Positions 11,809 through 14,625 of a DNA stretch of 64,000 nt are shown piece after piece. This DNA is from an uncultured Thiodictyon sp. (GTDB taxonomy: Bacteria > Pseudomonadota > Gammaproteobacteria > Chromatiales > Chromatiaceae): the NCBI RefSeq assembly GCF_903946935.1, contig NZ_CAJAXH010000216.1, positions 1 to 64,000 of the forward strand. The letters run 5' to 3'. Position 1 is the first letter of the stretch. Each line of letters starts with the position of its first letter. A program made the position numbers and the translations under genes. Below the pieces are notes generated by a model that saw nothing but the letters and a program-made list of their open reading frames with translations, ran no database searches and was not told the DNA's origin.

Positions 11809-14625
11809 ATGACGCAACCGCAGCCGACCCACTTGGAACAGCTTCGGCGCGCGCTCGCCGCCGAGGCGATCGATCAGGCCACGTTCGACGCCGCGGCCGG
11901 CGCGATGACCGCCCAGAACGCCGCGGGCGGCGCCATCGCCCAGGGGCCGGACGCGGTGGCGGTGGGCGCGGGCGGCGTGGACATCGGCGGTGACAACCAT
12001 GGCCCTATCAACACCGGCCGCGAGTTCACCGCCGCCCCGGGCGCCCAGATCGTCTACGCCGAACAGGGCGCCACCGTGGTCATCGGCGATGCCCCGGTCG
12101 CGATGACCGCGGTGGAGCGCCAAAGCACGCTCGGCCGCTATCTGCAAGTCCTCATCAGCCAGAACCGTTACCTCCAATTGCAAGGCATCCGCTCCGGCGG
12201 CCGGCTGGTCAATATCGAGCTCGATCGGATCTATGTGACCTTGCGCGCCACCCGCCAACCCGGCCAACGGACCCAGGTCGACTGGCTGGCCGCGGAGACG
12301 GCGCTGGCACCCGGCGAACGGCAGCGCGGCATGGACGAAGCGCCGCCGCACGACACCACACACATCACGGTCAATGAGGCACTGGCGGCGCACCGGCGGC
12401 TGGTCGTCCTGGGCGATCCCGGTAGCGGCAAGACCACCCTGCTGCGCTACCTCGCACTGCTCTATGCACGCGATCTGGCCGAGGGCACGCGCCTCACCGC
12501 AGACAAACTCGGCCTCGCCGATGCGGGAACCCTGCCCATCGTGCTGCCGTTGCGGCAGCTCGGCCGCTTCCTGGCGGAACACCATGCGCAGGACGACGGC
12601 ACCGACGGACACGCGCTGCTGCTGCGCTTTCTGGTTCAATGCTTGAGAAACGAGCGGATCGAGGTTCCGGCCGATTTCTTCGACGAATGGCTTAACGGCG
12701 GGCACGCCGCGGTCCTGCTCGATGGACTGGATGAGGTCGCGAATCCGGGTCTACGCCGGCGCGTCGCGCGCCTGGTCGACGCATTCACCCGCGCCTATGC
12801 CGGGTGCCGCTTTGTCGTCACCAGCCGCATCGTCGGCTATAGCGATGCCTCGCGGCTCGGTGAGGGTTACGCCAACACCACGGTACGCGATTTCACCCTG
12901 GACGATGTGCGCGTCTTCCTCACGCAATGGCATCGCCTGATCGCGATCGGCCATCTGGGTCCAGGTGAGGCCGCCGAGACGCTCGCGGTCACTCAGACCC
13001 GCCAATTGCTGGACGCCATCGACAAGAACGACCGCGTGCGTGAACTGGCCATCAATCCGCTCATGCTCACCGTCATTGCACTGATCCATCGCGACCGGGT
13101 CAAGCTGCCGGATCGTCGGGCCGAGCTCTATCAGGAGGCGGTGGACGTCCTGCTGGGCAAGTGGGACGAGGCGCGCGGGGTGCAGGAGTCTTTGATCCTC
13201 AATGACCGGCCATTCGACATCAGCGACCGGCGGCTGGTGTTGCAGCAGGTGGCCTTGAGTATGCATGAGCAGGCCATCAAGGAGATCGATGCCGAACCGC
13301 TGCGGGAACTGCTCAAGGTGCAGCTTGGCGGTGCCGTGGCGGACGCGCGCGAGCTGGATGCGGCCGTGACCCGGTTTCTCAACGTGATTCAGGAGCGCAC
13401 CGGGTTATTGATCGCCCGTGCCGAGGGGACCTACGCATTCTCCCATCTGACCTTCCAGGAGTACCTGGCCGCGCTCGCCATCGCTGGGCGCGACGACTAC
13501 CTGGACTATAGCCTGCGCCGTTCCCCCGATGCCTGGTGGCGCGAGGTGATCCTGCTCGCCGCGGGCTACCTGAGCACTCAGAGCAAGGAGAAGACCACCC
13601 GCCTGATCCGCGCCATCGCCGACGCCAGGGCCGAGCCGGAGCTTTATCACAACCTGGTCCTGGCCGCCGAATGCGTACGCGATGCTGGCGCGAACCGAAT
13701 CCTCGGCGATCTGGATGCCGAACTGCGGGGGCGGCTGCAGCGCGAATTGGAGACTCACGTCGGCAGCGGCCTACTCGGAAACATGCAGAGACTCTTCGCC
13801 CGAGCAGTCACCCCGCAGCAAGCGACCCGCCGGCGCCTTGCGGCAGCCGAGGCACTGAGTAAGATCGGTGGCAGCCAGTTCTGGACGCTGCCCTATGGCG
13901 AGCCGGAGTGGGTGCGGATTCCGGCGGGTGAGTTCACCATGGGCGAAGGGCACGAGGCACATCGGGTGCATTTGGATGACTATGCCATCGCGCGGGTGCC
14001 TATCACCAATGCGCAGTATGCCTTGTTTTTGCAGGCGACCGGCCGAGGCGCACCCAACGATTGGACCGGTCAGCGCCCACCGCGAGGCAAGGAAGGGCAC
14101 CCGGTGGTGAACGTCACTTGGCATAACGCACTGGCGTATTGCCACTGGCTGAGTGAAGCGACTGGCAAGCCACTTAGCCTGCCAAGCGAGCCGGAGTGGG
14201 AAAAGGCCGCTCGCGGTGCGGATGATGGGCGCGCCTATCCCTGGGGCGATGTCTTCGATGCAGCGAGGTGCAACGTAGATGAATCAGCATTCGGTGGGAC
14301 GACACCAGTTGGCATATTTCTCAACGGTGCAAGTCCCTATGGGTGTTTGGACATGGCAGGCAACGTATGGGAGTGGACCCGCAGCCGCTATCAGGACTAT
14401 CCGTATCGCCTCGACGATGGCTACGAGCAGTTTGAGCCAGGAAATGCCGATACACGTGTCGTGCGCGGCGGCTCGTGGTTCTACCATCGTGACGACGCGC
14501 GCTGTGCCTTTCGCTTCAGGCTTCGACCCGGCTCCCGGAGCGACCTCTTGGGGTTCCGTGTCGTCTTGCGTTCTGCCCCTGTTTCTTCAGCTCCGTCCTC
14601 TGTCACTCCGAACTCTGAACTCTGA
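11809..14625 (+). CDS. NACHT NTPase with C-terminal FGE/C-type-lectin-fold domain
   Basis: The 938-residue multidomain protein has four parts. (1) Residues 1-100 are an Ala/Gly-rich region with the repeated strand motif seen in bacterial NLR-like proteins ([11 protein letters not shown]). (2) A NACHT NTPase has Walker A [10 protein letters not shown] (201-210), Walker B [10 protein letters not shown] (301-310) and the sensor segment FVVTSR. (3) A helical region extends to about 690, with [13 protein letters not shown], typical of the winged-helix end of NACHT modules. (4) From about 703 to 925 there is a formylglycine-generating-enzyme-like (SUMF1) domain: [78 protein letters not shown] and GFRVVL. 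Its tail (883-918) resembles DGR variable regions. It is likely a STAND immune-type sensor. No DGR reverse transcriptase is in the window. Confidence 0.9.
   Translation: [938 protein letters not shown]
14476..14562 (+). other. candidate DGR-type variable region (VR) in the NACHT-FGE gene
   Basis: The end of the FGE domain, between RVVRGGSW and GFRVV, is where diversity-generating retroelements rewrite their targets. Here the exposed positions carry NNY codons (TTC, TAC, CAT, TTC, CTT, CTC) of the kind produced when adenines of AAY template codons are replaced. The framework residues (D-D-A-R-C-A-x-R, then R-x-x-x-G-F-R) match VR frameworks. No template repeat or reverse transcriptase is visible here, so any DGR would act in trans. 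Confidence 0.4.

Follow-up and report, generated by a model that had tools for sequence, protein, structure and literature searches.

A NACHT-lectin receptor gene as the probable former trans target of a DGR that is truncated on another contig

The window analysed here is a stretch of 64,000 nucleotides, i.e., contig C216 of source genome G000 (5,995,245 bp in 321 contigs, completeness 99.96%). Its cysG/sulfur genes and a DsrE-like gene suggest a purple sulfur bacterium of the Chromatiaceae, perhaps close to Thiodictyon. The window carries a gene whose product joins a NACHT NTPase to a lectin-fold domain, and the tail of this product looks like that of the proteins diversified by diversity-generating retroelements (DGRs). 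The question raised by this locus is therefore whether the gene has been served by a DGR, where the template repeat (TR) of that DGR lies, and whether the receptor can still be diversified today.

The receptor and its lectin fold

The open reading frame is intact (Table 1). In Pfam, residues 196–376 match NACHT (PF05729) with 35.8 bits against a curated cut-off of 26.7, residues 698–919 match FGE-sulfatase (PF03781) with 185 bits (E 2e-54), also above the curated cut-off, and both Walker A and Walker B (VLLDGLDE) are seen in the translation. The fusion of a NACHT domain to an FGE/C-type-lectin-fold domain, which had been proposed in the original prediction from the letters alone, is borne out by these two matches, and the RVVRGGSW...GFRVV framework that it described in the last ~40 residues is present. 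No PADLOC model matched the receptor, and no effector domain was found in the protein itself. Taken together with the decayed DGR described below, the best explanation, in which as a whole we have high confidence, is an NLR-like receptor composed of an N-terminal adaptor motif, a NACHT NTPase, a helical linker and an FGE-type C-type-lectin sensor.

Table 1. Coordinates of the receptor gene and associated features in the window
Feature	Position	Strand	Basis
NACHT-FGE/C-type-lectin receptor, 938 aa, intact, DGR target in trans	11809..14625	+	ORF, Pfam, dN/dS
N-terminal module, candidate homotypic adaptor	11809..12018	+	Matches in the source genome; caspase and receptors of G146
NACHT NTPase domain	12394..12936	+	PF05729
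FGE-type C-type-lectin domain, putative sensor	13900..14565	+	PF03781, AlphaFold2 model, TvpA match
DGR variable repeat (VR), 121 bp, aligned without gaps to the template C287:5507-5627	14458..14578	+	17/18 differences at 25 template adenines
Stretch with all 15 template-adenine codons, residues 891–913	14479..14547	+	VR/TR alignment, codon comparison
3' 31 bp of the VR, IMH-like end	14548..14578	+	No adenine in the template, identical to the template
GC-rich hairpin, 9-bp stem, 4-nt loop	14646..14667	+	Possible DGR target hairpin or terminator

The lectin domain was modelled by AlphaFold2 from 70 sequences with a pLDDT of 93.1 and a pTM of 0.91. Its best match in the PDB is TvpA (2y3c; Z 28.1, rmsd 2.4 over 215 residues), with PvdO, PorK and ToxD within about 1 Z of TvpA and the Mtd variants at Z 14–15 (Mtd itself, Z 14.6). 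In BFVD, one clear match was obtained, a cyanophage FGE-like protein, and the others are weak matches to tail fibres, so that this comparison was uninformative. In those DGR variable proteins whose structures are solved, the variable positions are exposed and make up a putative binding site (PMC6328139). The receptor shares the FGE-type CLec fold, as well as a VR at the extreme C-terminus, with TvpA of Treponema denticola and Mtd of phage BPP-1, whereas its lectin domain is fused to an NTPase and theirs are not.

Given the PF03781 match and the high structural ranks of FGE and EgtB, one may ask whether this domain is instead an enzyme of the formylglycine or sulfoxide-synthase type, in which the variation of the tail would be incidental. 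We consider this very improbable. When aligned to the S. coelicolor-type FGE (6muj), the receptor tail is without the cysteines of GGSYLCHDSYC, which we take to be the catalytic ones of FGE; that is, the active-site pair is absent. In addition, TvpA ranks first structurally, and the adenine-directed variation at that very site (see below) is incompatible with a conserved catalytic centre.

A template repeat on another contig

The original prediction supposed that a DGR elsewhere in the genome serves this gene, and we have indeed found a TR on another contig of the same genome, at C287:5507-5627 (+), with an E-value of 3e-34 against the window VR. The two differ at 18 of 121 sites, and the concentration of these differences at template adenines has a hypergeometric P of 8e-14. 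Two other VRs lie on C287 itself: one at 5221-5341 (+) shows 19 differences from the TR, 19 of them at adenines (P 3e-17), and one at 6833-6713 (-) shows 13, with 11 at adenines (P 2e-7). Pooled over the three VRs, 47 of 50 differences fall on TR adenines. When five intact DGRs of the same family were measured alike, 9/9 to 19/20 differences were at adenines, so a genuine DGR in this family leaves the same signature. Beyond these three VRs, the TR as a DNA query returned nothing of comparable strength from the whole source genome; a protein search found 42 places related to the lectin domain, including short stand-alone tail copies on C287.

The VR alignment also fits the more detailed expectations. 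The TR has AAC or AAT at nine codons, while one further A-bearing codon is CAA, and the window VR has NNY at all nine AAC/AAT sites, as had been noted before the template was known. At the 25 template adenines the window VR shows 10 T, 8 A, 4 G and 3 C. The repeat had been placed at 14476–14562; the location is right and the extent is somewhat longer, with identity over 14458–14578 and the adenine-bearing codons within 14479–14547. Its 3' 31 bp are adenine-free in the template, after which the identity between VR and TR ends abruptly, while identity among the three targets continues beyond the VR as far as the hairpin. Nothing in the window corresponds to the 5' flank of the TR, so the window holds no template in cis. 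As expected from the original prediction, the differences are limited to template adenines, save for a G to T at VR position 46 (GGT to TGT).

We further compared the gene with its ortholog in another species (G146:C140:5057-7855, 82% amino acid identity). At the non-adenine sites of the VR, 1 of 96 mismatches the TR while 8 of 96 mismatch the ortholog, and non-adenine sites closer to the TR than to the ortholog are expected if retrohoming rewrote the window VR after the species split. Judging from the sequence, the window VR was written in trans from a TR like that on C287, because nearly all of its differences are at template adenines and its non-adenine sites match the TR better than the ortholog. 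The ortholog likewise has TGT at the sole non-adenine difference, so the template of the window VR may have been an earlier form of the TR.

It could be argued that the "TR" and the three tails arose as ordinary duplicates among paralogs, and diverged by selection on the ligand face or by gene conversion with no reverse transcription involved. The identity that reaches past the VR to the hairpin does imply that segmental duplication or conversion took part. Nevertheless, selection would not restrict 47 of the 50 differences to the A positions of one specific non-coding copy. This copy stands alone, is AAC-rich like intact TRs, has a match that stops exactly at the 3' end, and sits beside remnants of a reverse transcriptase (RT) and an avd gene; moreover, the synonymous non-adenine sites agree with the TR and not with the ortholog. 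We therefore give the paralog explanation virtually no credence, and take writing from the template as the origin of the window VR in what follows.

The hairpin lies 67 bp past the VR and has the loop TACT, with a z of -1.79 only for the whole 131-nt stretch; its core is also present after both target tails on C287. In phage DGRs, a GC-rich hairpin with a 7–10 bp stem and a 4-nt GRNA loop is found 4–34 bp after the VR (PMC3240598). By comparison, the 9-bp stem here is within the range, whereas the distance and the loop are not those of the phage hairpins, and the structure is possibly a DGR target hairpin or possibly a terminator. Just past the VR cassette, at 14685–14794, there is an interspersed repeat with 89% identity to C287:6482-6590, a segment that adjoins the RT fragment; this repeat may have helped to spread the cassette. 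Convergent with the receptor gene lies a pentapeptide-repeat protein gene (14966–16636, -), the later part of which contains GDTIHQSGNFSGSIINIKSRLEQVSQ, a stretch that is rich in glycine and asparagine and reminiscent of adaptor motifs.

Decay of the DGR and the state of the receptor

On C287, downstream of the TR, there is an open frame ending in an RT C-terminus with LRYVDDFAMFSD. The RT fragment (C287:6016-6444) retains ~140 residues, with the first ~216 of ~357 missing, and the alignment shows that everything before the YVDD region is gone. Over 133 residues it shares 65% identity with residues 217–349 of a 357-aa RT in G068, which stands between two NACHT-FGE targets with its own TR and avd gene. 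The avd remnant on C287 (5950-6021, -) keeps ~24 of ~117 codons (residues 91–114 of 117) and runs directly into the RT fragment. The avd match is short (E 0.002 in the genome, E 8e-9 for the pair alone, and below the PF22296 cut-off) and its assignment is supported by its position; in the relatives, avd lies between TR and RT on the opposite strand, and the intact avd relative matches PF22296 bAvd and the PHROG family "Avd protein of DGR". A single deletion of the 5' halves of the divergent avd and RT genes would explain both fragments.

With the intact DGR RT as a query, no DGR-type RT besides the C287 fragment was found in the source genome, and with the intact Avd the C287 fragment was the only match. 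Since the deletion has fused the final ~24 codons of avd with the final ~140 of the RT, both are truncated, and as far as their sequences tell, the DGR is now inactive in this assembly. The search for a DGR-clade RT suggested by the original prediction thus yielded a remnant on C287 and no intact enzyme, and its wording that the receptor is diversifiable, in the present tense, is not supported, as the RT is a C-terminal fragment, avd is reduced to ~24 codons, and no other copies of them were found.

A separate scan of the source genome with PF00078 returned just a Cas6-RT-Cas1 fusion and a type VI retron RT. By itself, this result would look like evidence against any DGR; the truncated RT, however, falls below the cut-off (18 bits). 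The scan is meaningful in its negative part, since the intact G068 DGR RT passes that cut-off with 49 bits.

One may still suppose that the DGR is active, i.e., that the cell has a complete RT and avd, either dropped during assembly or located on a replicon that was not assembled, and that the receptor continues to be diversified. The genome is in 321 contigs, and the three near-identical tails on C287 could confuse an assembler, so that the deletions could partly be assembly errors. In addition, a Thiohalocapsa PB-PSB1 population is reported to hold coexisting intact and disrupted versions of one DGR (PMC10907252). On the other hand, the RT break falls in unique sequence outside any VR, the completeness is 99.96%, and the queries with intact RT and Avd found the C287 fragments only. 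The single non-adenine difference between VR and TR also suggests that some time has passed since the last writing. Overall, an active DGR appears unlikely to us, and we proceed with the inactive one.

The sister targets on C287 have decayed as well, though this picture partly rests on a contig with three near-identical repeats and a possible assembly error. Target A is split by a 122-bp MITE at about 3446-3567, and in target B the NACHT domain leads directly into the VR, which is in a different frame, with the middle lost. Two further tails, each with 16–20 non-adenine differences, resemble older targets: that of a third NACHT-FGE gene on C287 (VR-like, at 8794, -) and one on C230. The window gene would thus be the last intact target closely matching this TR on the contigs examined.

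Selection on this gene, as far as one ortholog from another species at 82% identity can tell, has been purifying: by the Nei-Gojobori method, dN/dS is 0.20 over codons 1–883 and 0.18 for the NACHT domain. Within the VR, where numbers are small, dN/dS is 1.53 in the 15 adenine-bearing codons and 0.15 in the 25 other codons, and at none of the nine AAN codons do the window VR and the ortholog encode the same residue. A scan of the contig collection with the whole protein gave remote homologs, for the most part FGE domains of other phyla, without any conspecific genome among them; they were used for the structure alignment alone. The specificity of the receptor looks frozen, and the gene has probably been kept by selection as a fixed receptor.

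Beside the ortholog, G146 has a TR stub (C140:7946-7998, 53 bp, 87%), in which the TR is cut about 28 bp into the repeat. As only a stub of the matching TR is kept there, DGRs of this class have decayed in both species, each time along a different route. Several DGR-type RTs are present in every one of the genus mates listed here (G146: C152, C259, C198 and C347; G079: C1), and some of these are in TR/VR loci with intact open frames. Such DGRs are a rich set for studying how DGRs are gained and lost.

A candidate effector and the relation to known systems

The N-terminal ~70 residues of the receptor hold a motif which is common to the N-termini of sister receptors and the C-termini of caspase-like proteins. 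In the source-genome search, this module matches a receptor on C287 (E 1.8e-16) and a caspase at C287:1900-2055 (E 5.9e-8); the sites are the N-terminus of target B and the C-terminus of the caspase-like PF00656 protein that precedes target A. In G146, three genes follow in succession on one strand: the ortholog of the window gene, a caspase (69% identical, with the motif C-terminal), and another NACHT-FGE receptor, whose motif is related. No caspase adjoins the window gene itself. A motif common to receptor N-termini and protease C-termini suggests homotypic recruitment, and the caspase-like protease is likely the candidate effector of the receptor. A possible kinship of this motif with the amyloid-signalling (BASS) families was also considered. 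As a side observation, the window segments 7281–7165 and 60727–60846 are 60–69% identical in translation to the sequence preceding the start of the C287 caspase, and represent another interspersed genomic repeat.

In relatives, the variable surface of the CLec fold and the NTPase-driven assembly of STAND proteins are established. For the present receptor, a former trans target of the DGR now on C287, the 15 variable codons would shape a lectin face that binds an invader ligand, the NACHT domain would oligomerise with NTP, and the N-terminal motif would recruit the caspase-like protease, which bears this motif too, with cell death or dormancy as the outcome. We tentatively propose, without rating it as probable, that a hypermutable receptor has here become a fixed innate one: a single deletion would have killed RT and avd, and one trans target would have kept its last-written specificity under purifying selection, working with the caspase-like protease via an unnamed adaptor motif of ~35 residues.

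NACHT-lectin DGR targets in purple sulfur bacteria have already been published: Doré et al. 2024 described NACHT-CLec targets, trans targets, and the decay of DGRs by mobile elements in Thiohalocapsa and relatives (PMC10907252). The present locus is a member of that group in a decayed state. It shares with those systems, DGR 3 and DGR 1 above all, the central NACHT, a single-VR lectin of the FGE type at the C-terminus, remote targets that are written in trans, a peptidase gene near targets, and degradation of the RT and other parts by mobile elements; the closest analogue is their DGR 1, where a VR matches a remote TR and no variation is seen. It differs in that one deletion truncates both RT and avd, leaving fragments only, that the N-terminal motif is common with a caspase-like protease while theirs are EAD8/trypsin or S8/WD40, and that the window gene is the only intact target of its TR on the contigs examined (PMC10907252).

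The receptor also resembles the STAND/NACHT conflict systems of Kaur et al. 2020, which are enriched in aggregating bacteria, in the NTPase switch, the caspase-type effectors and the FGS/C-type-lectin domains linked to DGRs, whereas none of their core MoxR-vWA, GTPase and EACC1-caspase genes is beside the receptor among the ORFs of window 6–22 kb (PMC7159879). With bacterial NACHT anti-phage proteins and Avs, it has in common the NACHT centre, an N-terminal signalling part and a variable C-terminal sensor; the characterised ones sense conserved phage proteins through germline-fixed repeats, while the receptor carries a DGR VR.

What is new here is the clear loss of both enzymes with a conserved receptor surviving, plus a caspase as candidate partner. 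The raw sequence confirms the diversification of an NLR-like bacterial receptor by a DGR on another contig. It also offers a readable case of diversifier loss, in which the template, fragments of both enzymes, damaged sister targets and a single intact receptor can all be seen. Provided that the receptor still works, one can ask for what purpose a specificity made by a DGR was worth retaining, and a fixed single-sequence sensor would be simpler to assay than a variant population; the caspase with the common motif is a testable candidate effector.

Two further observations concern other elements of the source genome. The 122-bp MITE-like element has terminal inverted repeats and CTAG at both ends, and at least 41 copies with 100% identity are among those listed (40 of 85 candidates scored), including C287:3446-3567 and C319 at about 2095-2216; since the copies are identical, the burst would be very recent. 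On C319 (L001:292-3508), the element interrupts the Cas6-RT-Cas1 fusion, and this insertion may have disabled its RT-linked spacer acquisition. The type VI retron RT is on C69 (L002:703-1888), where an HTH gene is followed by the RT (PADLOC RT_VI, E 4e-89).
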